The position numbers and the translations under genes were made by a program. DNA of 64,000 nt, taken from the NCBI GenBank assembly GCA_004102645.1, contig CP034928.1, positions 682,001 through 746,000 on the forward strand. Reading direction: 5' to 3'. Below the pieces are notes generated by a model. It saw only the letters and a list, made by a program, of their open reading frames with translations, was not told where the DNA came from and did no database searches. The stretch comes from Candidatus Bipolaricaulis sibiricus (lineage in GTDB: Bacteria; Bipolaricaulota; Bipolaricaulia; Bipolaricaulales; Bipolaricaulaceae). Shown one piece after another: positions 34,824 through 47,195 of this stretch; the stretch's first letter is position 1, and every line of letters starts with the position of its first letter.

Positions 34824-35183
34824 ATGGGCAGACGGGAAGAGTTCTTCACAGAGCGGGAGCGCCTCACCGCGCTTACCCTCCGGCGGGCGAACCTGGTCAC
34901 AAAGCGGTTCTTCGCCCTCGACACTACGGCCTACGACGACGGGGCCCTCCCCCGGGTGACGAAGGAGCTCCTGGGCCTCGTGGCGTCCCTCGTCCTGCGC
35001 TGCGACGACTGCATCACGTACCACGTCGTCGGGGCGTGGGAGGCCGGAGCTACCGGAGATCAGCTGATGGAGGCGATGTCCGTCGCGTTGGTGGTGGGAG
35101 GATCGATCGTCATCCCCCACCTCCGCCGGGCGGCGGCGCTGGTGGACGAACTGGAGGGAGGCGATGCAGCGAGCGGTCATTGA
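34824..35183 (+). CDS. Carboxymuconolactone decarboxylase/AhpD-like protein
   Basis: A 119-residue all-helical protein of the AhpD/CMD fold. The redox-active CxxC lies in LRCDDCITYHVVGAWEAGAT, with the proton-relay histidine of AhpD-like peroxidase systems. The likely role is as a thiol-based peroxidase or disulfide carrier rather than a decarboxylase. ATG after AAAGGAG. Overlaps the flavodiiron gene by 20 bases. Confidence 0.9.
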   Translation: MGRREEFFTERERLTALTLRRANLVTKRFFALDTTAYDDGALPRVTKELLGLVASLVLRCDDCITYHVVGAWEAGATGDQLMEAMSVALVVGGSIVIPHLRRAAALVDELEGGDAASGH

Positions 35184-36351
35184 GCTTAGGGAGGGGATTC
35201 ACTGGGTGGGGGTCAAGGACTGGGGCCGACGGCTGTTCGACGGGCTGATCCCGCTCCCCCACGGGACGTCGTACAACGCCTACCTCGTGCGGGGACAGGA
35301 GAAGACGGCCCTTGTGGATACGGTCAACCCCGGGTTTGAGGGCGAGCTCATTGCCAAGATCCGGGCGGTCGCGGATCCGGCGGGGCTCGACTACGTGGTC
35401 ATGAACCACGCCGAGCCCGACCACGCGGGGGCGATCCCCGTTCTCCTCGATCAGAGCCCACGGGCCCAACTCGTCCTCACCGCGAAGGGGGCGGAGATGG
35501 CCGACCGCTACTACCGCGTACCCGAGGACCGGATGCAGGTCGTGAAGGACGGGGACGCGCTCGACATCGGTGGGAAGACCCTCCGCTTCATCGACGCCCC
35601 GTTCCTCCACTGGCCGGAGACGATGTTCACGTACCTCGTCGAGGACGAGGTCTTGTTCCCGTGCGACTTCTTCGGCGCTCACACTGCGGCCGGGGTGGAC
35701 GACGACGACGTGCCCGACCTCGCGGTTCGCGCTCAGATGTACTTTGGCGAGATCATGATGCCGTTCCGGAAGGCCGGGGAGCGGGCGATGAGGAAGCTCG
35801 CCGATCTTCCGATCGAACTCATCGCCCCGAGCCACGGGCCGGTGTGGCGGCACCCCGAGCGGATCCTGGGCTTGTACCGCAAGTGGACCGCGGGGGAAAC
35901 GGTCCCCAAGGTGGTCGTCGCCTACGTGAGCATGTGGGGCTCGACCGAACGGCTCGTCCGCGTTGCGACCGAGGTCCTTCTTGACGTGGGGATGCACGTT
36001 GCCGTGCACGAGCTGGCGCACGTGGACGTGGGCGACCTCGCCGGCGACCTCGTCGACGCGCGGGCGCTCGTGCTCGGCGCGCCGACGGTGCTTGGTGCCC
36101 TCCACCCCGCCGCGCTCAACGCGGCCCACCTCGTGCGGACGCTCCGGCCCCCGCTCCGGTACGCGGCCGTGCTCAGCTCCTACGGCTGGGGGGGCGGGGC
36201 CCGGCGTCAGGCGGGCGAGATCCTCGGCCCAACCGGGATCGAGGTCCTGGGAGCGGTGGAGGTCCACGGCGCGCCGGACGCGGGTGCGGAGGCCCAGGCC
36301 GCGGCCCTCGCCGCGGAGCTCGCCGCCAAGGTCCGGGATTGGGAGCGATGA
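35164..36351 (+). CDS. Flavodiiron protein (A-type flavoprotein, FprA-like)
   Basis: Reduces NO to N2O and/or O2 to water in anaerobes. 395 residues. The metallo-beta-lactamase part holds the di-iron ligands: VMNHAEPDHAGAIPVLL (HxExDH), LFPCDFFGAH and IAPSHGPVW. The C-terminal flavodoxin domain begins VVVAYVSMWGSTERLVRVA. No rubredoxin or flavin-reductase extension is attached, so a separate donor is needed. ATG after GGAGGGAGGC. Confidence 0.95.
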   Translation: MQRAVIELREGIHWVGVKDWGRRLFDGLIPLPHGTSYNAYLVRGQEKTALVDTVNPGFEGELIAKIRAVADPAGLDYVVMNHAEPDHAGAIPVLLDQSPRAQLVLTAKGAEMADRYYRVPEDRMQVVKDGDALDIGGKTLRFIDAPFLHWPETMFTYLVEDEVLFPCDFFGAHTAAGVDDDDVPDLAVRAQMYFGEIMMPFRKAGERAMRKLADLPIELIAPSHGPVWRHPERILGLYRKWTAGETVPKVVVAYVSMWGSTERLVRVATEVLLDVGMHVAVHELAHVDVGDLAGDLVDARALVLGAPTVLGALHPAALNAAHLVRTLRPPLRYAAVLSSYGWGGGARRQAGEILGPTGIEVLGAVEVHGAPDAGAEAQAAALAAELAAKVRDWER

Positions 36352-36651: not shown

Positions 36652-38301
36652 ATGGGCATGTTCTGTTACCAGTGCGAGCAGGCGGCCGCGGGCCAGGGCT
36701 GCACCGTGAGCGGGGTCTGCGGCAAGGACCCAGAGGTCGCCGCGCTCCAGGACCTCCTCCTCCAGCTCACGAAGGAGATCAGCTGGCTCGCCCATCAGGC
36801 GCGGGTGCGGGAAGCCCGCGACGAGGCGGTCGATGCGTACGTTGCCGAGGCCCTGTTCACCACGGTCACCAACGTGAACTTCGACCCGCGCCGGCTTCAG
36901 AGCGTGATCGCCGAGGGGATCCGCGTCCGTGATCGGGGGGAGGGGCTGTACCGCGGGGTCTCCCGAGCGGCCGGTCGCGAGCCGGATCCCGTTCCCCACA
37001 GCTTGCCCATCCCCGACGTCCGTGACCGGGACGCCCTCGTCGCGCTGGGGCGGACCGTTTCCCCTGCCACGCGGATCGCCGCGGACGGGGCCGAGCGGGC
37101 TGGCCTGGCCGAGCTTGTGGTCTACGGCCTGAAGGGGGCGGCAGCCTACGCCGTTCACGCCCGGTCCCTCGGCTGTGAGGACGACCGGGTGTACGCGTTC
37201 TTCCACGAGGCGTTGGCCACACTTCTCGCCGGGGGCCTGGACCGGGATGGGCTCCTCTCTCTCGCCCTGCGCTGCGGGGAGGCCAACCTGCGGGCAATGG
37301 AGCTCCTTGACCAGGGGCACACCGAGGCGTTCGGCGACCCCACGCCGACCCGGGTCCGCGTGACCCCGGTGCGGGGGAAGGCGATCCTCGTCTCCGGGCA
37401 CGACCTCCAGGACCTGTACGAGCTCCTCCGCCAGACGAAGGGGAAGGGGATCCACGTCTACACCCACGGCGAGATGCTTCCCGCCCACGGATACCCCGCG
37501 CTGCGGGCGTTTCCCCATCTCGTCGGCAACTACGGCGGCGCGTGGCAGGATCAGCGTCGTGAGTTCGCCGCCTTCCCCGGGGCGATCCTCATGACCACGA
37601 ACTGCATCCAGAAGCCGGCGGAGTCGTACGCCGATCGCATGTTCACCTCTCACCTCGTCGCCTGGCCGGGCGTGCGCCACGTGGAAGGCCGGGACTTCAC
37701 GCCGGTGATCGAGGCCGCGCTCGCCGCGCCGGGGTTTGCAGACGATGCGCCGGAGCAGAAGATCACCGTCGGCTTCGGGCGCAAGACCCTGCTCGACGCC
37801 GCGGGGACCGTGCTCGACCTCATCCGGGCGGGGAAGCTCCGGCACGTGTTCCTCATCGGCGGCTGCGACGGTGCCAAGCCGGGCCGGAACTACTACACCG
37901 AGTTCGCGACCTCCGTGCCGGAGGACTGTCTCATCCTCACCCTTGCCTGCGGGAAGTACCGGTTCAACAAGCTCTCGTTCGGGGAACTTGCAGGCCTGCC
38001 GCGGCTCCTCGACGTGGGGCAGTGCAACGACGCCTACGCCGCGATCCGGCTCGCGGGGGCCTTGGCCGAGGCCGCGGGGTGCGGGCTGAACGACCTACCG
38101 CTGTCGCTCATCCTGTCGTGGTACGAGCAGAAGGCGGTGGCAATCCTGCTCACGCTCCTCCACCTCGGGATGCGCGGGATGCGGCTCGGCCCCAGCCTGC
38201 CCGCGTTCCTGACCCCCGAGGTGCTCGCCGTGCTCGGCGAGGCGTTCGACCTCGCCCCGACCGGAACGCCCCGGGAGGACCTGGCGGCGATCCTGGGCTG
38301 A
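36652..38301 (+). CDS. hcp: Hydroxylamine reductase / hybrid cluster protein
   Basis: 549 residues, cytosolic. It contains a conventional N-terminal cubane (MFCYQCEQAAAGQGCTVSGV then CGK) and the hybrid Fe-S-O cluster. Hcp reduces NO or hydroxylamine and handles protein S-nitrosylation. The FCYQCEQ start, the THGEMLPAHGYP segment, TTNCIQKP, and GGCDGAKPGRNYYTEF with LACGKYRFNK are all diagnostic. ATG preceded by AAAGGAGGG. Its position after the flavodiiron gene strengthens the nitrosative-stress reading. Confidence 0.96.
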   Translation: MGMFCYQCEQAAAGQGCTVSGVCGKDPEVAALQDLLLQLTKEISWLAHQARVREARDEAVDAYVAEALFTTVTNVNFDPRRLQSVIAEGIRVRDRGEGLYRGVSRAAGREPDPVPHSLPIPDVRDRDALVALGRTVSPATRIAADGAERAGLAELVVYGLKGAAAYAVHARSLGCEDDRVYAFFHEALATLLAGGLDRDGLLSLALRCGEANLRAMELLDQGHTEAFGDPTPTRVRVTPVRGKAILVSGHDLQDLYELLRQTKGKGIHVYTHGEMLPAHGYPALRAFPHLVGNYGGAWQDQRREFAAFPGAILMTTNCIQKPAESYADRMFTSHLVAWPGVRHVEGRDFTPVIEAALAAPGFADDAPEQKITVGFGRKTLLDAAGTVLDLIRAGKLRHVFLIGGCDGAKPGRNYYTEFATSVPEDCLILTLACGKYRFNKLSFGELAGLPRLLDVGQCNDAYAAIRLAGALAEAAGCGLNDLPLSLILSWYEQKAVAILLTLLHLGMRGMRLGPSLPAFLTPEVLAVLGEAFDLAPTGTPREDLAAILG

Positions 38302-38861: not shown

Positions 38862-40334
38862 CTAGAGATAGCCGAGCCTCACTCCGATGATCATGCCGAC
38901 GCCGATCAAGACCATCACCAAGCCCGTGGTGAAGTGGAGCTTCCCGAGCTTCGCCGTCCGCCATCGCTCTGCTCGGGCGGTGGTCGTGAACCCGAAGTGG
39001 ACAAGCAGGGTGATCCCGATCATCGGCAGGATGAAGATGAAGTTGTACAGGAGCAACCACAGCGCACCCTGAAGTCGGCTCGTCGTCTGAGACAGCAGGG
39101 TGAGGATCACGATGTAGGGGCCCGATGTGCACGGGGCGAGGAACAGAGAGTCCACCAGGCCGATCACGAACGCCCCGGGGATCGATACCACCGACGCCGT
39201 GATCTTCTTCACTGACGGCTTCCACTTCTCGGGAACCTCGATCGAGAACCACTTCCCGTACCAGAGGAGGTCCTTCATCTCCCACAGACCGATCACGATC
39301 GCCAGGGACGAGACGGCGTAGACGAACGGCACCCGGAATGCGCGGATGCCGCCTACGAGTGAGTAGAGGGCAAAACCGATTGCGTAGTAGGCAACGAAGA
39401 TCCCTGCTGCGAACGCGAGTCCGGCCCAGATCACCTTGACGCGCTTCCCCACCACGAGCAAGGTCCCGAGAAGGAGGATGAGCACAGCGAAGTCGCACGG
39501 GTTGACCGAGTCGAGAATCGCCGCGATGACCACCGCTCCCAGGGTGAGCTGTTCTCGCACCCGAAGGCGATCGAGTGGAGAGCTGGACTGAGTCCGGACA
39601 GCTTGAGCCAGTGCGTCGTTGACCGCCGCGGCTCCATCCGCGGTGTCCAGCGCCAGGGGAGCGCGGCGTGGGAGGAACACCTGCCCACCTACCACAGCCA
39701 CGTCCCCGGCGAAAAACCCGGGGGCGTTGCCGTGGGCCCCGTACATGCGCTTCAGCTTGTCGAACGTAGACGCTGCGTCTGGGGTTGCCAGGTCGAGCTG
39801 CCGGACCCCGAGGCCGGGGTACTGCTCCACCCACCGCTCGACGAGGGCCTCCAGGATCTGGCAGTCCGGGCATCCAGCGGCGCGTGTGAACAGCACGCCC
39901 TCCGTGACGGTCGGGGGTAGCTTCGTGAGCGGCGAAGGTGCGCCCACAGCCTGCGCCGTGCGGATCGCTTCTTCCAAGGTCAGTTCTTGGGCAAGCCCAG
40001 ACAGGGTTACGGGCTGGGGGCCCACACCGTAGAACGTGGTGCCCACCATGACCACGTCGCCCACGAACACCATCGGTACCGGGCCCAGCTCAGCGCTGTA
40101 GGCCCTGAGAAGCCTCTGGAGGAGGCTCCACCCCTCCGGGGTGTGGATGCCATAGCGGTGGAGCCTGAACGGGAGGCCATCCTGGATCAGTGTTCCCAAG
40201 AACGTCTCGACCTGCTTGCAGTGCGAGCACCCTTCTTCGTAGAAGAACAGGACCTCGACCTCCTGGGCCATCGTGGCCCAGACCGCGACCGTGAGCCCTG
40301 CCAGCAGCCCGAGCCACACGCGCCTAGCCCTCAT
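38862..40334 (-). CDS. Thioredoxin-fold / DsbD-CcdA-type membrane fusion protein
   Basis: A 490-residue exported membrane protein, last gene of the ars operon. A signal peptide (1-23) is followed by two periplasmic thioredoxin-like domains with Cys-x2-Cys pairs: EEGCSHCKQ (Cys36, Cys39) and AAGCPDCQI near residue 150. The C-terminal ~240 residues form six or so helices with the paired membrane cysteines of CcdA/DsbD (SVNPCDFAVLILLLG and FLAPCTSGPYIVIL). This would move reducing power from cytoplasmic thioredoxin to the periplasm. Start ATG with GGGAGGGG; it overlaps the end of arsC by 11 bases. Confidence 0.85.
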   Translation of the reverse strand: MRARRVWLGLLAGLTVAVWATMAQEVEVLFFYEEGCSHCKQVETFLGTLIQDGLPFRLHRYGIHTPEGWSLLQRLLRAYSAELGPVPMVFVGDVVMVGTTFYGVGPQPVTLSGLAQELTLEEAIRTAQAVGAPSPLTKLPPTVTEGVLFTRAAGCPDCQILEALVERWVEQYPGLGVRQLDLATPDAASTFDKLKRMYGAHGNAPGFFAGDVAVVGGQVFLPRRAPLALDTADGAAAVNDALAQAVRTQSSSPLDRLRVREQLTLGAVVIAAILDSVNPCDFAVLILLLGTLLVVGKRVKVIWAGLAFAAGIFVAYYAIGFALYSLVGGIRAFRVPFVYAVSSLAIVIGLWEMKDLLWYGKWFSIEVPEKWKPSVKKITASVVSIPGAFVIGLVDSLFLAPCTSGPYIVILTLLSQTTSRLQGALWLLLYNFIFILPMIGITLLVHFGFTTTARAERWRTAKLGKLHFTTGLVMVLIGVGMIIGVRLGYL

Positions 40335-40758
40335 GCCGTTCCCCTCCCTCGACGAATCGACCTGTAACCCAGTTCCACAGAGCGTCGCGGACCTGGCGGA
40401 ACGCTCCCCGCATCTCGTCCTCCCCGCCCTCCGCCGAAGCCGGGTCGGGGAAGGGAACGTGCTCCTGCCGCCCGCCTGGGAAGAACGGGCAGCTCCCCGG
40501 CGCATCGTCCCCGCAGAACACGATCACCTCGTCGAACGCGTGACCCAGGAATTCGCGCACGTCCTTGGATCTCTGTCCCGAGATGTCCACACCCCGCTCG
40601 GCGAGGACCTCGATCGCGAGCGGGTGAACCGCGGTGGGCGCGCTCCCTGCGCTGGCAGCCTCGTACCGATCGCCGGCGAGGTGACGGAGGATCCCCTCCG
40701 CCATCTGGGACCGGGCGGAGTTGTGCGCACACAGGAATAGCACCCGCTCCTTCGCCAT
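40324..40758 (-). CDS. arsC: Arsenate reductase, thioredoxin-coupled (LMW phosphatase fold)
   Basis: Reduces arsenate to arsenite in the cytoplasm; 144 residues. The P-loop CAHNSARSQMAEGIL carries the Cys-x5-Arg nucleophile, and the two resolving cysteines are in VIVFCGDDAPGSCPFFPGG, as in Staphylococcus/Bacillus ArsC, regenerated by thioredoxin. A simple low-molecular-weight tyrosine phosphatase lacks these extra cysteines. ATG shares one base with the upstream stop (TGATG). Confidence 0.93.
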   Translation of the reverse strand: MAKERVLFLCAHNSARSQMAEGILRHLAGDRYEAASAGSAPTAVHPLAIEVLAERGVDISGQRSKDVREFLGHAFDEVIVFCGDDAPGSCPFFPGGRQEHVPFPDPASAEGGEDEMRGAFRQVRDALWNWVTGRFVEGGERHEG

Positions 40759-41222
40759 CACTTCCAGAGGAGAAGCAGGGCCGCGACCCCCACCGCCAGG
40801 ATGAGGACGATCTCGAGCGGACTCAACACGCGGCGCATCTTGTCGGGAAGTCGCTCCAGCGGCGAGGGGCAGCCCTCGGTGCGGCATCGGAGGACCTCCT
40901 CCTCGATTCGGAGCTGCGCCACGAGGCCAACTCCGGCGACCGCAACGTTGCCCACGAACACCGTTGGGGTGACCTCCTTGGTCAGCCCATAGGCCTGACC
41001 GAGCGTGGCCAGGAGCCGCCAGTTGTCGGGACTGAACGTGACCTCATGGGCGACCACCCGCAGGTCAGGGTACGTCTCCTGAAGCTCGGCAAGGTACGCC
41101 TTCATGACCAAGCAGTCCGGACATGTCGCGGACCAGAAGTAGTGGAGCTCCACCTCGGCTGCCATTGCACCGACGGCCGCTCCAACGAGAAGAAGAGCGA
41201 TCAGGTTTCGCCATCGCATCAT
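40758..41222 (-). CDS. Exported thioredoxin-fold protein with C-terminal membrane anchor
   Basis: A 154-residue protein with a signal peptide (about 1-21), a thioredoxin-like domain with [19 protein letters not shown], a cis-proline TPTVFVG strand, and a C-terminal hydrophobic helix ([18 protein letters not shown]). A further pair of cysteines ([12 protein letters not shown]) lies before the helix and could be a second redox or metal site; a similar SPL motif occurs in the 38862-40334 protein. Start: the first of two adjacent ATGs, with AGGAGG, in an ATGA overlap with the acr3 stop. Confidence 0.8.
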
Positions 41223-42352
41223 GCCACCTCCTGAGCCTTCGCGCCCCTCAGGGCGAACCAGCTACGTGTGCGCAAGCAGATCCGCACCAGCATCAGCATC
41301 ACCGGGACCTCGATCAGAACGCCGACCACCGTGGCCAGCGCCGCCCCCGAGGACAGGCCGTAGAGCATCGTCGCCGTGGCGATCGCGACCTCGAAGTGGT
41401 TCGAGGCGCCGATCATCGCCGACGGAGCCGCATCCTCGTACCGGAACCGCAGCAACCGTGCCAGCCCGTACGTGATCCCGAAGATGAGCCACGTCTGGAG
41501 GAAGAGCGGGATCGCGATCCACAGGATCGTGAGTGGGTTCTCGACGATCGTCTCCCCCTTGAATGTGAAGAGGAGGACCAGCGTCAGCAGGAGGGCGATC
41601 ACCGATACCGGCGTGAGCCAGGGGACGAACTTGTCCCCGAACCACGCCTCCCCCATCCGCGCCACCACCCATCTCCGGGTGAAGTACCCTGCCGCGAGGG
41701 GAAGGGCCACGTAGATCGCGATCGAGAGAAGCAGCGCCTGCCACGGCACCGGCATCTGGTTGAGCCCCAGGAGGAGCCTCCCCAGCGGGCCGTACAGGAC
41801 GAGCATCGTGAGGGAGTTGATCGCCACCATGACGAGCGTGTGGCCCTGGTTTCCCCGGGCGAGGAACCCCCACACGAGGACCATCGCCGTGCAGGGGGCG
41901 ATTCCCAGAAGGATCGCCCCCGAGATGTAGGACCGGAAGAGCTCGACCTGGGTCCCATCCTTCACGACCTCCACGCCGGGCAGGAGACCGCGGAAGAAGA
42001 GACCCAGGAACAGGGTGGCGATCCCGAACATCGTGAACGGCTTGATCCCCCAGTTGACGATGAGGGTGAGGAGTACGGGCTTCGCGTTCTTACCCGCGCG
42101 GAGGACCTCGGCGAAGTCGATCTTGACCATGATCGGGTACATCATGAAGAACAGGGCAGCCGCGATCGGGATCGACACGACCGGGGCCCCACCCACGTAG
42201 ATCGCGAGCCCGTCGAGAGACCGGGCCGCGTCGGGCGCCACACGACCGAGGAGGATCCCCGCCCCAATGCACAGGACGACCCACAGGGTCAGGTAGCGCT
42301 CAAACACACCCCACCCAGGTCCCTGCCGGGCCTGGGACTGTGTGGAACCCAC
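41219..42352 (-). CDS. acr3: Arsenite efflux permease, ACR3 family
   Basis: Ten-helix membrane protein of 377 residues exporting As(OH)3 by proton antiport. [17 protein letters not shown] at the N-terminus, [13 protein letters not shown], the conserved cysteine in [18 protein letters not shown] (arsenite binding) and [15 protein letters not shown] are typical ACR3 segments. GTG start with GAGG upstream, ten bases after the DUF1573-rhodanese gene. Confidence 0.96.
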
Positions 42353-42362
42353 AGCCTAGCCT

Positions 42363-43433
42363 CTACGGAGAGGGGAAGAGGAGCTCGTCGCCAAAGCTTG
42401 CACGCCAAGCAGCGATGCCGCCGAACAGACAACGTGCCTTCGCGAACCCCACACTCTGCAGGTACTGCGCGACTGCGCACGACTGCGAGCCATCGTCATC
42501 CACAACCCAGATGGACAGCGACGTGCCTGTCGCGGGTCGGGGAAGTCCAGCCGCCCACGCCACCAGCGCGTCCTGGGTGGGTAGGGATACGTTGACCGCC
42601 CCCGGGAAGTGGCCCTGAGCGAAGGTCTCCGGAGAGCGAAGGTCCACGATGTAGAGGTAGTTCTGGGCGACGCGTGACGCCTGGACGCTCCCCCACGTGC
42701 CGTAGTACGGTGTTCCGCTGGGAGGAACGTGTGCGGCATCGGGTGCCCATGCCACGAACAGGTCGCCCAGCGACTGCCACCACGCCACCAGTCCTCCGGA
42801 GATCGCCCGCGGCAGCAGAAACGCGTTCTGTTGAAGAAGCTGGACAGCCTGCGCTGCCTGGATCCCCGTTGTGTCGTAGAGGTAGACAACCTTTGACTTG
42901 GGGAGCTCGCCCAGACGGGCCGACAGGTCAGCGTACGGGATGTTCACCGCGCCGAGCAGGTGACCCTGTGCGTACTCCGCCGCCGTTCGCAGGTCTACAA
43001 GCACGTAGAACTCCGCGTCCAGCGTTCCCGGCGCCCCCTCGTGGGCAGCGAGGGTCCGCACCACGCCCCGGACCGTCACCGGAAGCTGCGGCCGGGTCGG
43101 GTCGTTCGAGGAGATGGTCAGTGTCTGGGAGACGGGCTGCGCGTACCGGCTGTAGCCCGCCGTTCGGAACGTGACCGTCATCATCACTGTCTCCCCGGGG
43201 GCGATGGTCCGCTTGGGCAGCGAGTAGCTCGTGCACGAGCAGTTGTAGCTCACGTTGCTGATGGTGAGGGTGCTCGTCCCGCTGTTGGTGAGGGTCACGG
43301 TGTACTGGACCACCGCCCCATCCATCGCCACGCCGAAGTCGTACAGCTCGGGACTTGCAGCCAGCTTGGGGGTAGCGAGGGCCACCGCGCCTAGGACCAG
43401 CAATCCCACCAGAAGACATCCAATCCGCTTCAT
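42363..43433 (-). CDS. DUF1573 plus two rhodanese-like domains, exported
   Basis: A 356-residue periplasmic protein: signal peptide (MKRIGCLLVGLLVLGAVALA), then an Ig-like DUF1573 domain with the usual cysteine pair (NVSYNCSCTSYSLP), then two rhodanese folds (VDLRTAAEYAQGHLLGAVNI and VDLRSPETFAQGHFPGAVNV). The active-site loops are LYDTTGIQAA and VVDDDGSQSCAV, both lacking the catalytic cysteine at the expected position, so sulfurtransferase activity is unlikely. It may bind oxyanions or protein partners, or serve as scaffold. Ribosome site AGAAGGAGG. Unusual member of an ars operon. Confidence 0.82.
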   Translation of the reverse strand: MKRIGCLLVGLLVLGAVALATPKLAASPELYDFGVAMDGAVVQYTVTLTNSGTSTLTISNVSYNCSCTSYSLPKRTIAPGETVMMTVTFRTAGYSRYAQPVSQTLTISSNDPTRPQLPVTVRGVVRTLAAHEGAPGTLDAEFYVLVDLRTAAEYAQGHLLGAVNIPYADLSARLGELPKSKVVYLYDTTGIQAAQAVQLLQQNAFLLPRAISGGLVAWWQSLGDLFVAWAPDAAHVPPSGTPYYGTWGSVQASRVAQNYLYIVDLRSPETFAQGHFPGAVNVSLPTQDALVAWAAGLPRPATGTSLSIWVVDDDGSQSCAVAQYLQSVGFAKARCLFGGIAAWRASFGDELLFPSP

Positions 43434-43459: not shown

Positions 43460-43708
43460 CTAGCTGCGTTCCTTTGCTTCCAGGTGTTTCTTGATCTCCG
43501 TCACGGAAGCGATGTGGCCAGAGACGACGATCTGACCGTCAATTGCAAGGGCAGGTGTCATCATCACGCCCCGCTCGATCATCTGGGCCAGATCTTCCAC
43601 CTTCACCACTCTGGCCGCCACGCCCAATTCCGCCACCGCCCGCTCGGCGTTCCGCAACGTCGCCTTGCACTTCGGACATCCCGTCCCGAACACCTCGATC
43701 ACGTGCAT
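43460..43708 (-). CDS. Small thioredoxin-like redox disulfide protein
   Basis: An 82-residue cytosolic glutaredoxin-size thioredoxin (small redox-active disulfide protein 2 family). MHVIEVFGTGCPKCKATLRN carries CxxC, and TPALAIDGQIVVSGHIASV has the cis-proline. A likely electron donor to arsC or to the neighbouring CcdA protein. Preceded by GGAGGT. Family members are common in ars operons with permeases. Confidence 0.92.
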   Translation of the reverse strand: MHVIEVFGTGCPKCKATLRNAERAVAELGVAARVVKVEDLAQMIERGVMMTPALAIDGQIVVSGHIASVTEIKKHLEAKERS

Positions 43709-43770: not shown

Positions 43771-44469
43771 TCACGGTGCCGCGTAGATCAGGTACAGCCC
43801 CGCCAAGATCACCAGGACCCCGCACATCGCCTTGACAACCTTCGTTCCCCGCGACCTCTCGCCCCAGTTGAGGTAGCGCTGGACGATGCCCATCGACGTC
43901 CCCGCCGCCACGATCACCGCGCAGTGGCCGAGGGCGTACATTCCCAGGAGCAGCGCCGCGTAGGAGAGGTTCCGGGAGGCCATCCCGAACGTGACGGCAA
44001 GCATCGGGGCCATGTAGGCGAACGTGCACGGCCCGAGGGCGGCCCCGAACACAAGCCCCAGCAGTGCCGCCCCCCAGTACCCCTTCGGCCCCAAGGCGAG
44101 GGTGCCCAGTCCGCTCCGCGGAAGCGGGATCAAGCCCAACAGGTACAGCCCCACCAGGAAGAACACACCGGCCACAATGTAGTTGCCGTACGGTCCCACG
44201 TCGCCGAGCATCCGGCCTGCCATGGCGGTGATTGCCCCCACGATCCCGATCGTGACGAGGATCCCCAGGGAGAACGCGGTCGAGATGGCAAGCGATCTGC
44301 GCACCATCGGCTGTCCCTGACGGTTGATGTACCCCACCACCAAGGGGATGCTCGCCAGGTGACACGGGCTGAGGAGAACGCTCAGCACGCCCCACGCCAG
44401 CGATCCGGCCACCGCCACGAGGGGCGTCCCCTCGACCGCCTGATTCAGCGTGGCGAACAATTCCCCCAC
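43771..44469 (-). CDS. ccdA: CcdA-type cytochrome c biogenesis / thiol-transport membrane protein
   Basis: About 232 residues with six transmembrane helices. The two redox cysteines sit in LSPCHLASIPLVVGY and LGPCTFAYMAPML, positions equivalent to DsbD-beta/CcdA. It passes electrons across the membrane to periplasmic thioredoxins. GTG start two bases after the upstream thioredoxin stop, with GGGAGG. Together with its neighbours it forms a complete trans-membrane thiol relay. Confidence 0.9.
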   Translation of the reverse strand: MGELFATLNQAVEGTPLVAVAGSLAWGVLSVLLSPCHLASIPLVVGYINRQGQPMVRRSLAISTAFSLGILVTIGIVGAITAMAGRMLGDVGPYGNYIVAGVFFLVGLYLLGLIPLPRSGLGTLALGPKGYWGAALLGLVFGAALGPCTFAYMAPMLAVTFGMASRNLSYAALLLGMYALGHCAVIVAAGTSMGIVQRYLNWGERSRGTKVVKAMCGVLVILAGLYLIYAAP

Positions 44470-44471
44470 CG

Positions 44472-45113
44472 CTAGCGGCCTCCCACGTCGACCCCGAGCT
44501 GCTTCCACTTGGAGAGGATCTGCTCTTTGGAGTAGAAACCCGTGTGCCGGAAGAGCTCCCTGCCGTACGCGTCGTAGAAGATCTGCGTGGGGATGATGCG
44601 GATCCCGTACTTGTCGGCCTCTGAGGGGTTCTTCCACACGTCGATGAACACGACTTCGAACACGCCGGCATACTGGCCCCGCAGCTCTTCGAGGATCGGG
44701 GCCATCTGTTTGCAGGGGATGCACTTGTCCGCCCCGAGATCGACCAACCTGGGCAGAGCCTTGGGGGGCTCCGGAACCGCGACCGGCCGCTCGGGCATCG
44801 GCAGCGGGTCTGCGGCAGCCGGCTCGGCCACCCCTTGTGTGGGCTCGTCCACCGGTTCCTCGGTTCCTGGGTCGGCCAGCGGGACAACGGAGACTCCCAC
44901 GACGGCCGCCAGCTCCGGCGGAGCGGGGGAGATCCCTGGTTCAGCAACCCCAGCTGCCGGCCGATCGGCCGGCGGTTCTGAGGCGACTCCCGGATGCCAC
45001 AGCGTCCCCTGCCGGAGGTAGACCGCCCCCGCCACCGCCAGCGCGAGCAGGGCGAGCGCCCCCACGCGGAGGAACACCTTTCTCTTGTCTAGGGAATCGC
45101 TCTTCGGCGTCAC
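44472..45113 (-). CDS. Membrane-anchored thioredoxin-domain protein
   Basis: About 213 residues. A short cytosolic N-terminus, one hydrophobic anchor (VFLRVGALALLALAVAGAVY), a ~75-residue Pro/Ala/Glu-rich linker and a C-terminal thioredoxin domain with GADKCIPCKQMAPILEELRG and IIPTQIFYDAYG. It would face the periplasm and be reduced by the CcdA protein encoded next. Start is uncertain: GTG at 45113 has GGAG upstream, and GTG at 45143 would add ten acidic residues and overlap the DGC gene by 26 bases. Confidence 0.88.
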   Translation of the reverse strand: MTPKSDSLDKRKVFLRVGALALLALAVAGAVYLRQGTLWHPGVASEPPADRPAAGVAEPGISPAPPELAAVVGVSVVPLADPGTEEPVDEPTQGVAEPAAADPLPMPERPVAVPEPPKALPRLVDLGADKCIPCKQMAPILEELRGQYAGVFEVVFIDVWKNPSEADKYGIRIIPTQIFYDAYGRELFRHTGFYSKEQILSKWKQLGVDVGGR

Positions 45114-45117
45114 CCTC

Positions 45118-45528
45118 TCACTCTCCTGCTCGGTCTCGTCCACGCAAGGCGTTCCGGATCGCCTCCACCGCTCGCTCCCGGTCCTCCTCCGTCAGGGCGG
45201 GCGGGGGGCCCTTCTTGATCCCCGGATCGTGCGTCAGGACCAGGGCTGCGGGGGGCGGAAACCCCGCCCGCTCCGCGATCCTCCTGGCGCAGGCTAGCGG
45301 ACAACCGTCCACGGCCGCGACCCGTTCCGCCTCCCGCGGGCGCTGCTGGACCATCGGGTCCCCATTGGCGAGCGAGGCCAGGCAGAAGACCGTTCCTTCT
45401 CCCGCCGTGACGACCTCGAGCGCCGCCAGACCGGTCAAGGTCCCCACGCTGGCCATCCCCCCGAAGCACGCCAGCAGCGCGCGCGTTCTCGCCGAGCCTT
45501 CGTTCTGAAGACCCCAGCACCCGCTCAT
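45118..45528 (-). CDS. DGC-domain putative zinc-binding protein
   Basis: A 136-residue cysteine-rich cytosolic protein of the DGC family (named for its Asp-Gly-Cys). CWGLQNEGSARTRALLACFG, then FCLASLANGD and the VDGCPLACARRIAERAG signature fit. Function unknown, thought to bind zinc or another thiophilic metal. The ATG overlaps the stop of the arsP-like gene by four bases; the much longer in-frame extension is a shadow of that gene. Placement inside an ars operon suggests metalloid binding, which is inference. Confidence 0.82.
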   Translation of the reverse strand: MSGCWGLQNEGSARTRALLACFGGMASVGTLTGLAALEVVTAGEGTVFCLASLANGDPMVQQRPREAERVAAVDGCPLACARRIAERAGFPPPAALVLTHDPGIKKGPPPALTEEDRERAVEAIRNALRGRDRAGE

Positions 45529-46838
45529 CCTCCGATCACCGTCCCGTAGAGCTTTCCCGCCAGCGTGGACAACACGACCACAACTGCGATGAACGCGGCT
45601 GTCTTCTTCGTCCCGAGGATGCGGCGGATGACGAGCATCGAGGGCAGGGACAGGGCTGGGCCAGCCAGGAGGAGGGCGAGGGCTGGCCCCTGGCCCATCC
45701 CGGAGCCGAGGAGGCCCTGGAGGATCGGAACTTCGGTGAGGGTGGCGAAGTACATGAACGCCCCCGCCACCGACGCCACCGCGCTCGACAGCCACGAGTT
45801 CCCGCCCACTGCGGCCTGGACCCACCGCGCCGGGATGAGGGCTTCTTCCCCCGGCCGGCCGAGGAGGAACCCCGCCACGAGGACGCCGCCGAACAGGTAG
45901 GGGAGGATGAGAAGCGCGTAATCCCACGTGGAACGCACCCACGCCCCTCCCTCCTCTTTGCCGACCCAGAACGGGAGAAGAGCAAACAGCGCGACGAGGA
46001 ACACCCCGGCCACCGCGTACCGGTACCGCCACAGGGCGGTGTAGGCCGACGGGCTGTACTCTGCCCCCGCGATCTCCGCTTTGGTCAGCGAGACGATCTC
46101 CTCCTCTCCCTCCGGCACCACAAGAAGGGAGGATGCGTCCTCCCCGGCGCGCGTGCCGGAGAGTGTGGTTCCGTCGCGGAGCGTCACCGTTACGCCCGCT
46201 GGTCGGCCCCAGTTGGCAACGACGAGCACCGCGATCATGAGCGTGAACAGGACGACCGTCTTCCAGAGCGCGCGGGCCGGGGGAGGGGGCGTCGGCACGG
46301 TGGCGGCCGCATCCCCCTTCGCCTTCTCCTCCTTCCGGAACAGAGCGTGCATCGCCAGCCCGGTCACGATCGAGAAAACCACCGCGCCGATCGCTCGGGC
46401 AATCCCGAGGGACGGCCCCAGCACGCGCGCGGTGAGGATGATCGCCAACACGTTGATCGCCGGTCCCGAATAGAGGAACGCCGTCGCCGGCCCGAGGCCC
46501 GCGCCCCGCGTGTAGATCCCGGCGAACAGCGGTAGCACAGTGCACGAACACACCGCGAGCACCGTCCCCGACACCGAGGCCACGCCGTAGGCGAGGATCT
46601 TGTTCGCCCCGTAGCCGAGATAGCGGACTACCGACGCCTGGGACACGAACACCGCGATCCCGCCCGCGATGAACAGGGCCGGGATGAGGCAGGTGAGCAC
46701 GTGCTCGCGGGCGTAGTCCTGGAGAAGGAGGAACGCCTCGGCAAGGGCCTTCTGCACGACCGGCGCAGACCACGGGACGAAGTACGCGGCGAGAAACGTG
46801 CCTCCCAGCAAGAGGGACAGACGCAGCTCGCGCTTCAT
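45525..46838 (-). CDS. ArsP-type permease (organoarsenical / metal efflux)
   Basis: A 437-residue membrane protein of the permease family that includes ArsP (trivalent organoarsenical efflux) and SO_0444-type exporters. Two repeats of about four helices flank a ~100-residue hydrophilic insert (residues 170-270). GTVLAVCSCTVLPLFAGIYT with its CSC motif, then GAGLGPATAFLYSGPAINVL, and the second-half SVAGAFMYFATLTEVPILQG are characteristic. ATG start overlaps the arsR stop (ATGA). Substrate could be methylarsenite or another soft metal. Confidence 0.88.
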   Translation of the reverse strand: MKRELRLSLLLGGTFLAAYFVPWSAPVVQKALAEAFLLLQDYAREHVLTCLIPALFIAGGIAVFVSQASVVRYLGYGANKILAYGVASVSGTVLAVCSCTVLPLFAGIYTRGAGLGPATAFLYSGPAINVLAIILTARVLGPSLGIARAIGAVVFSIVTGLAMHALFRKEEKAKGDAAATVPTPPPPARALWKTVVLFTLMIAVLVVANWGRPAGVTVTLRDGTTLSGTRAGEDASSLLVVPEGEEEIVSLTKAEIAGAEYSPSAYTALWRYRYAVAGVFLVALFALLPFWVGKEEGGAWVRSTWDYALLILPYLFGGVLVAGFLLGRPGEEALIPARWVQAAVGGNSWLSSAVASVAGAFMYFATLTEVPILQGLLGSGMGQGPALALLLAGPALSLPSMLVIRRILGTKKTAAFIAVVVVLSTLAGKLYGTVIGG

Positions 46839-47140
46839 TCAGACTCGCTTGAGCACCGCAGATTGGCCAAGCAGGACAGGAGACGAGAGATGTCAGGCCG
46901 GACCAGGCGCCACATGATCCGTACGCCATCGCGCCGCGAAACGATCAGTCCCGCGCGCGCGAGAGCGGCGAGATGCCGCGACACCACCGACGGATCAAGG
47001 CCGAGCAACGGGACGAACTCGCACCCGCACCGCTCGCCGTCCTCGAGTAGGCGCAACAACTCGACCCGCGCCGGGTGGGCGAGTGCCTTGCCGATCGTAC
47101 TCAGTGCCGTTTCAACTGTCTCAGTCGAGCCGTTTGGCAT
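46835..47140 (-). CDS. arsR: ArsR family metalloid-responsive repressor
   Basis: A 101-residue winged-helix repressor and first gene of the operon. Metal-binding thiols Cys38-x-Cys40 in DGERCGCEFVPLL match the ELCVCDL site of As(III)-sensing ArsR; the DNA helix is LGLDPSVVSRHLAALARAGL. Two more cysteines near the C-terminus (SCLANLRCSS) may add a third ligand. Start chosen at the ATG overlapping the operator-like dyad; a longer frame starts before the transcription start. Confidence 0.94.
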   Translation of the reverse strand: MPNGSTETVETALSTIGKALAHPARVELLRLLEDGERCGCEFVPLLGLDPSVVSRHLAALARAGLIVSRRDGVRIMWRLVRPDISRLLSCLANLRCSSESE

Positions 47141-47164
47141 ATTGCACAACCATGCACGAATGCC
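47136..47164 (-). promoter_or_regulatory. Candidate ArsR operator
   Basis: A 29-bp dyad with arms GGCAT-TTGCA and TGCA-ATGCC around a short centre, one base bulged. It spans the predicted transcription start and the arsR start codon, the usual place for ArsR autorepression. Confidence 0.55.
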
Positions 47165-47166
47165 GG

Positions 47167-47195
47167 ATGCTAGTACGCACACCCCATCCTGTCAA
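47167..47195 (-). promoter_or_regulatory. Promoter of the ars operon
   Basis: On the minus strand, perfect TTGACA (47195-47190), 17 nt, TAGCAT (47172-47167). Transcription would start at about 47160, inside the dyad. Confidence 0.7.

Follow-up and report, generated by a model that had tools for sequence, protein, structure and literature searches.

A DUF1573 protein with two rhodanese domains that lack the catalytic cysteine, and its genomic association with a thioredoxin-DsbD-type membrane protein in Bipolaricaulota

The window, a stretch of 64,000 nucleotides from Candidatus Bipolaricaulis sibiricus, encodes on its minus strand a 356-residue protein in which a DUF1573 domain is followed by two rhodanese domains, and the ATG of this ORF lies exactly at the coordinates given in Table 1. 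In the window's genus, the DUF1573-rhodanese module sits in an arsenic-resistance operon. Upstream and downstream genes of the operon encode several thioredoxin-like and membrane proteins, one of which we propose as a partner of the DUF1573-rhodanese protein. We took the start of this proposed partner at MRARRV, inside a longer ORF reaching 40505. It scored 23.2 bits against DsbD_TM (cut-off 27.1), and its match to the NCBIfam DsbD model was likewise below the cut-off, while the corresponding protein of a relative (L088) reached 33.4 bits against the same DsbD_TM cut-off. Our assignment of the partner to a putative thioredoxin-DsbD type rests on this match in L088 together with the weak DsbD_TM similarity, the two thioredoxin-like CxxC motifs and the Cys-Pro and Pro-Cys motifs in the membrane region. 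The listed ORF of the CcdA-like gene, a label of our own reading, overlaps that of the thioredoxin, so that translation probably begins further in. A small Cys-rich ORF (45118-45528, minus strand, 136 residues, beginning MSGCWG) lies between this thioredoxin and the ArsP permease and has homologues near 9 of 70 relatives; it presumably resembles the DGC-type putative zinc-binding proteins. Beside the arsenic operon, two plus-strand ORFs (35164-36351 and 36652-38301) resemble by eye flavodiiron and hybrid-cluster (hydroxylamine reductase-like) proteins.

Table 1. Features of the DUF1573-rhodanese protein and its neighbouring genes, in window coordinates.
Feature	Position	Strand	Basis
DUF1573-rhodanese-rhodanese protein, 356 aa	42363..43433	-	ORF list, Pfam, AlphaFold2 model
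Probable signal peptide, aa 1-20 (MKRIGCLLVGLLVLGAVALA)	43374..43433	-	read by eye from sequence
DUF1573 / Ig-like domain, aa 22-126	43056..43370	-	Pfam PF07610 and PF22544; structural match 2qsv
CxC motif, C65-S-C67	43233..43241	-	turn between strands 56-63 and 68-71 (model)
Rhodanese domain 1, aa 132-228	42750..43040	-	Pfam, model
Asp187, catalytic-Cys position of domain 1	42873..42875	-	model, alignment
Rhodanese domain 2, aa 246-352	42378..42698	-	Pfam, model
Asp312, catalytic-Cys position of domain 2	42498..42500	-	model, alignment
Cys319 (of QSCAV), probable disulfide with Cys335	42477..42479	-	co-occurrence, position
Cys335, partner of Cys319	42429..42431	-	co-occurrence
Proposed partner: thioredoxin-like domains (CSHC, CPDC), then DsbD_TM-like membrane region (NPCDFA, PCTSGP)	38862..40334	-	weak DsbD_TM, NCBIfam DsbD under cut-off, motifs, synteny
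ArsC-like arsenate reductase, LMW-phosphatase fold	40324..40887	-	PF01451; TIGR02691 95.7 bits, below 174.3
Small thioredoxin-like protein, C-terminal hydrophobic stretch	40758..41222	-	Thioredoxin_4/DSBA weak, below cut-off
Acr3 arsenite efflux transporter	41219..42352	-	TIGR00832 over cut-off
MTH895/ArsE-type small thioredoxin	43460..43708	-	TIGR00412 over cut-off
CcdA-like membrane protein (our label)	43771..44724	-	no family over cut-off
Thioredoxin with N-terminal hydrophobic segment	44472..45143	-	PF00085 over cut-off
ArsP_1 permease	45525..46838	-	PF03773 over cut-off
ArsR/SmtB repressor	46835..47182	-	NF033788 over cut-off

The domain composition is supported by both profile matches and a structural model. 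PF07610 (DUF1573) was matched at 62.6 bits against a cut-off of 26.1, the two rhodanese stretches together scored 102.3 bits (Pfam, cut-off 22.2), and in a scan of the genome each rhodanese domain singly passed PF00581 (56.7 and 51.2 bits against 22.2). The NCBIfam model NF041425 (OS_HP2) matched residues 30-125 at 60.6 bits, under its cut-off of 100. The AlphaFold2 model, built on the window protein aligned with 24 relatives, has a mean pLDDT of 91.9 and a pTM of 0.82, and residues 3-17, within the probable signal peptide, form a helix of low pLDDT. In a structure comparison of the model, the rhodanese part matched GlpE (1gmx; Z 13.7, 104 aligned residues, rmsd 3.0), showing that it has the rhodanese fold, and the DUF1573 part matched 2qsv (Z 15.1, 109 aligned residues, rmsd 2.7). 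Among the matches listed, 3hix_C covers domain 1 alone (Z 12.6) and none is restricted to domain 2. In the 1.70 Mb genome, the window protein is the sole DUF1573 match, and the other rhodanese matches fall in a single ORF (L099:1393-2853; G000:C1 near 50000), which looks like a metallo-beta-lactamase-like fusion carrying two rhodanese domains, of which the first lacks Cys at the catalytic position and the second has the loop ICSSGNRSG.

The initial annotation had read the loops LYDTTGIQ and VVDDDGSQ, both of which are present in the protein, as a sign that the two rhodanese domains lack the catalytic cysteine, and had suggested a binding or scaffold role rather than sulfur transfer. In a rhodanese, the catalytic Cys follows directly on a strand and precedes the next helix. 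In the model, these places are held by Asp187, right after strand 182-186 and ahead of helix 191-202, and by Asp312, right after strand 306-311 and ahead of helix 318-327. The same two residues occupy the Cys column when the protein is aligned with three Cys-bearing rhodaneses, namely the own-genome domain with ICSSGNRSG and the relatives L067 (YCKGGFRSA) and L058 (YCQSGKRSS). Because Asp187 and Asp312 sit in both the model and the alignment where the catalytic Cys belongs, the observation is confirmed: neither domain has the sulfur-transfer Cys that would mark the protein as an active sulfurtransferase.

The replacement is no chance event and extends through nearly the whole family. In an alignment of 115 rows, made from the window protein and 70 relatives and then enlarged by 44 further ORFs, Cys is replaced at position 187 in 110 of the 114 rows with a letter (103 Asp, 4 Gly, 3 Ser and 4 Cys, window included) and at position 312 in 75 of 76 (68 Asp, 5 Ser, 2 Gly and 1 Cys, window included). 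The loop glycines are mostly retained, G190 in 67 of 71 rows and G315 in 51 of 59. Active members of the family apparently exist, since the Cys-bearing ones carry motifs resembling active sites (YCKGGFRSA, YCLAGARS and YCQSGKRSS). We considered whether these relatives represent the root of the family, and rejected this; in a quick tree the four with Cys187 sit in one five-row cluster inside family f2, so Cys187 cannot be called ancestral. Among 12 pairs of close relatives, dN/dS was 0.00 to 0.25 for domain 1 (one pair saturated), 0.08 to 0.29 for domain 2 and 0.05 to 0.32 for the DUF1573 domain; in these pairs, purifying selection maintains both dead rhodanese domains. The family is thus a clear example of an enzyme nucleophile that is almost entirely lost while the fold is retained under selection. 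Five relatives (L043, L044, L045, L049 and L052) have a Cys one residue ahead of the domain-1 Asp (YVCDEAGE or YVCDAAGE) and another two residues before the domain-2 Asp (IFCVD, IYCVD), the domain-2 feature being the more widespread.

The cysteine-paired DUF1573 domain that had been described for the protein is also found, and its CxC is near-invariant: of 114 rows with a letter, 113 have C65 and all 114 have C67. The initial annotation had laid its weight on the rhodanese domains; these are real, but the near-invariant element of the family is the CxC of the DUF1573 domain instead.

Two further cysteines in domain 2 vary together. In the model, C319 opens the helix that follows the second loop, seven residues beyond the catalytic position, and C335 lies in the next strand. 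Both are present in 32 of the 73 two-domain rows and neither in 40, C319 standing alone in 1, and because of this co-occurrence they probably form a disulfide. Their Jaccard index, in a set of 57 rows, was 0.97, against at most 0.30 for the other pairings of variable Cys columns; in independent pairs, about three of four (or three of three) supported comparisons agree and none is opposite, which is not significant. The window protein has both residues, while four of its five nearest relatives in the tree lack both (L072, L073, L074 and L076). We also considered and rejected C319 as a displaced nucleophile, which the initial annotation had named, as the Cys of QSCAV, as the finding that would overturn its reading. 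Its position in the helix, its absence from 40 of 73 rows and its co-occurrence with C335 all speak against such a role. A tie between the C319-C335 pair and the membrane partner is not claimed: the partner is a neighbour in 27 of the 29 rows that have both cysteines and in 8 of the 24 that do not (Fisher p 5e-6), with 4 of 57 two-domain rows left out for having little downstream sequence and with L045 and L058 scored as partner-less on 1.8 and 1.1 kb, but the labels follow clades and offer two or three supported independent pairs.

At E ≤ 1e-10 the protein is matched in 48 of 60 relatives, a few of these matches covering one domain alone; at E ≤ 1e-15 it is matched in 74 of the 100 phylum genomes. 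A contig scan of the genome collection with two peptide patterns yielded 27 loci, which is what those two patterns can find, and 24 of these are titled Bipolaricaulota, Bipolaricaulis or Acetothermia. The loci titled Thermotoga (L110) and Caldisericota (L128) may come from mis-titled bins. A candidate fusion outside the phylum, from Clostridia (L130), was rejected, its rhodanese match covering 62 residues only. One locus (L040:4955-7178) holds a tandem pair of DUF1573-rhodanese genes, the second with an unusual NYPCC replacing SCGCT.

To describe the surroundings of the family, same-strand genes up to 5 kb away were counted for 70 relatives; these counts are minima, as many contigs end nearby, and the relatives share descent, so that they are not independent events. 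A homologue of the thioredoxin-DsbD_TM membrane protein lies near 35 of the 70, the small thioredoxin-like protein near 26, Acr3 near 18, ArsP near 17 and ArsC near 15. At least one of Acr3, ArsC and ArsP is near 26 of 70, the membrane protein occurs without any of the three in 17, and 27 have neither the membrane partner nor these arsenic genes within 5 kb, some of these loci being cut by the contig end and many not. Counted over the 73 places of the family, the membrane-protein homologue is within 5 kb in 36; among the 54 genes with at least 2 kb of downstream sequence, 32 are accompanied by it on the same strand at a distance of up to 5 kb; and in the reverse direction, 35 of 57 DsbD_TM-type matches are within 5 kb of a member of the DUF1573-rhodanese family. 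Since Acr3, ArsC or ArsP is near 26 relatives and the membrane protein near 35, the arsenic genes characterize certain lineages, including the window's genus, and the membrane thiol protein is the commoner companion. Of the arsenic/thiol setting that had been envisaged for the protein, the thiol-redox part is supported, whereas the arsenic part is not supported in the form given, 17 relatives having the DsbD-type neighbour and none of Acr3, ArsC and ArsP.

The membrane protein was also followed to where it sits apart from the DUF1573-rhodanese family, in 20 loci that cover 21 of the 22 such matches. Three of these, from three other families of the class (L131 in f8, L132 in f5 and L133 in f3), have two ORFs with DUF1573 and no rhodanese together with the thioredoxin-DsbD-type gene, at least one of them adjoining it. 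The CxC contexts in these ORFs are SCGCT, SCSCT and SCMCT, and DUF1573 was confirmed by Pfam for the proteins of L131 and L132. The membrane proteins there were identified by their similarity to that of the window (E 1e-24 to 1e-30), no family being over its cut-off, and in L131-L133 no homologue of the ars genes was found within the stretch read. In the stretch read of the remaining 17 loci, some of them cut by the contig end, no DUF1573 was found; among these 17, L134, L136 and L138 combine the membrane protein with Acr3 and ArsC. DUF1573 can thus accompany the membrane protein in the absence of rhodanese domains, and the membrane protein can accompany arsenic genes where no DUF1573 is found. 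Another of the 17, L142 (G000:C1:1148007-1149488), is a second, 57% identical copy of the membrane protein in the window's own genome, with no homologue of DUF1573 or of another operon gene in the 9.5 kb read. Outside the phylum, no DsbD-type gene was listed near DUF1573 (one Parabacteroides plasmid, whose annotation is incomplete).

With middling confidence, we propose that the DUF1573-rhodanese protein is an exported thiol-redox partner of the DsbD/CcdA-type membrane protein, with rhodanese domains that dock and do not catalyze; the electron steps, the location and the docking are what we infer. Electrons would pass from cytoplasmic thioredoxin to the 38862-40334 protein, first to the Cys pair in its membrane region and next to its outer thioredoxin-like domains, and would then reach C65-x-C67 of the Ig-like DUF1573 domain. 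The reduced CxC could then reduce or isomerize disulfides outside the cell membrane, and the Asp-loop rhodanese domains, with no persulfide on the usual Cys, would act as recognition or docking modules. We favor this relay because the CxC is near-invariant, the membrane protein is syntenic with the family, and DUF1573-only genes neighbor it in three other families; we read the rhodaneses as non-catalytic recognition modules because the persulfide-carrying Cys is absent. Against the relay stand the 27 of 70 relatives with neither partner nor ars genes, the presence of DUF1573 in only 3 of the 20 separate partner loci, the three others there that pair the membrane protein with Acr3 and ArsC instead, and the second copy of the membrane protein in the window's genome, which has no DUF1573 beside it.

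Several known systems share parts of this arrangement. The structure 2qsv from Porphyromonas gingivalis, annotated without function and presumably a DUF1573 protein, has the same Ig-like fold as the DUF1573 domain here. The CxC is shared with DUF1573 (PF07610) in general, while the fusion to two rhodanese domains is the window protein's own feature. Two articles count DUF1573 as a predicted selenoprotein and give its motif as UGC (PMC13188914, PMC9312934), which agrees with redox chemistry at the CxC; OS_HP2 (NF041425) would be this predicted selenoprotein family, which has the same domain, whereas the window protein has Cys in place of Sec. In the accessible text of a 2014 article, nDsbD, which is fed through the membrane domain of DsbD, is called the only known thiol oxidoreductase with an Ig fold (PMC3961690). 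DsbD, as described in that text, joins nDsbD, tmDsbD and cDsbD, so that an Ig-like domain with a Cys pair, a membrane domain and a thioredoxin-like domain are shared with the system here (PMC3961690). However, the parts here are encoded by separate genes (42363-43433 and 38862-40334) and not in one polypeptide, the Cys pair is CxC and not C103...C109 as in nDsbD, and rhodaneses are added; the likeness to nDsbD that we describe is one of parts. A broader proposition, which we put forward as possible though doubtful, is that DUF1573 joins nDsbD as a second thiol oxidoreductase with an Ig fold, being its counterpart on a separate chain that a thioredoxin-DsbD-type conduit would feed through the CxC, and that in this phylum the Asp-loop pseudo-rhodaneses would choose its substrates. 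Non-catalytic rhodaneses are already known, as are DUF1573, DsbD and thioredoxin; neither their combination nor the link between DUF1573 and a DsbD-type membrane protein turned up in searches of the open-licence PMC literature. No function for DUF1573 was found in the available text of that literature; the occurrence of DUF1573 beside a thioredoxin-DsbD-type membrane protein, with or without rhodaneses, offers a simple and direct test of its function.

The CxC could equally be a metal site. An explanation close to the initial one, and in our judgment an unlikely one, is that the CxC, for which the rhodaneses would form a scaffold, captures a thiophilic ion (arsenite, zinc or another) on the outer side of the membrane and passes it to or from ArsP or Acr3. 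This would suit the window, where the operon holds ArsR, ArsP_1, Acr3, an ArsC-like protein and ArsE, as well as the arsenic genes near 26 of 70 relatives and the membrane thiol protein found with Acr3 and ArsC, and with no DUF1573 found, in L134, L136 and L138; by eye, two relatives, L058:1148-2176 with its Cys-bearing domain 2 and L128:3581-4246, each adjoin an ORF resembling a P-type metal ATPase. However, it would leave unexplained the 17 relatives that have the DsbD-type partner and none of Acr3, ArsC and ArsP, and the DUF1573-only ORFs that adjoin a DsbD-type gene in L131-L133, with no ars homologue in the stretch read.

It is comparably improbable, in our view, that the conserved Asp loops themselves bind an oxyanion, a metal or a small molecule, in the manner of the signal transduction proposed for the lumenal rhodanese of TROL. 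Decay of a dead site would give mixed residues, yet Asp is found in 103 of 110 non-Cys rows at position 187 and in 68 of 75 at position 312, and TROL itself, in the accessible text, is an inactive rhodanese of the thylakoid lumen with Asp for Cys207 (PMC12295754). Asp is also present in domains 1 and 3 of 1yt8, however, so it may be a structural stand-in. We give very little credit to a cryptic sulfurtransferase carrying its persulfide on C319 of QSCAV or on another Cys; the window protein does have C319 just past the loop, but the residue is displaced by seven positions, is missing from most two-domain rows and occurs without C335 in a single one.

For the rhodanese domains of the proposed redox partner, a binding role is plausible by analogy with known proteins. 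The structure-comparison listing includes 1vee, annotated At4g01050, which we take to be TROL. The excerpts on TROL describe a redox-linked single rhodanese in a thylakoid protein with two transmembrane segments that binds FNR, and mention no DUF1573 (PMC12295754), and in those on TBC1D23 a rhodanese domain binds without catalysis (PMC7274447). Cys-less loops like those of the window protein are also seen in our alignments in domains 1 and 3 of 1yt8 and in Alr3790 (3hix); another domain of 1yt8 appears to keep its Cys (VLTCGSS), whereas neither domain of the window protein does. The N-terminal domain of 1e0c is, we assume, an inactive rhodanese as well. Rhodanese and DsbD-like modules occur together, as here, in TsoB (NF045694), a rhodanese/DsbD fusion-like selenoprotein, which in the text at hand carries Sec residues (PMC13188914); the CcdA-like protein of the window (43771-44724) scored 22.2 bits against NF045694, for which the cut-off is 805.
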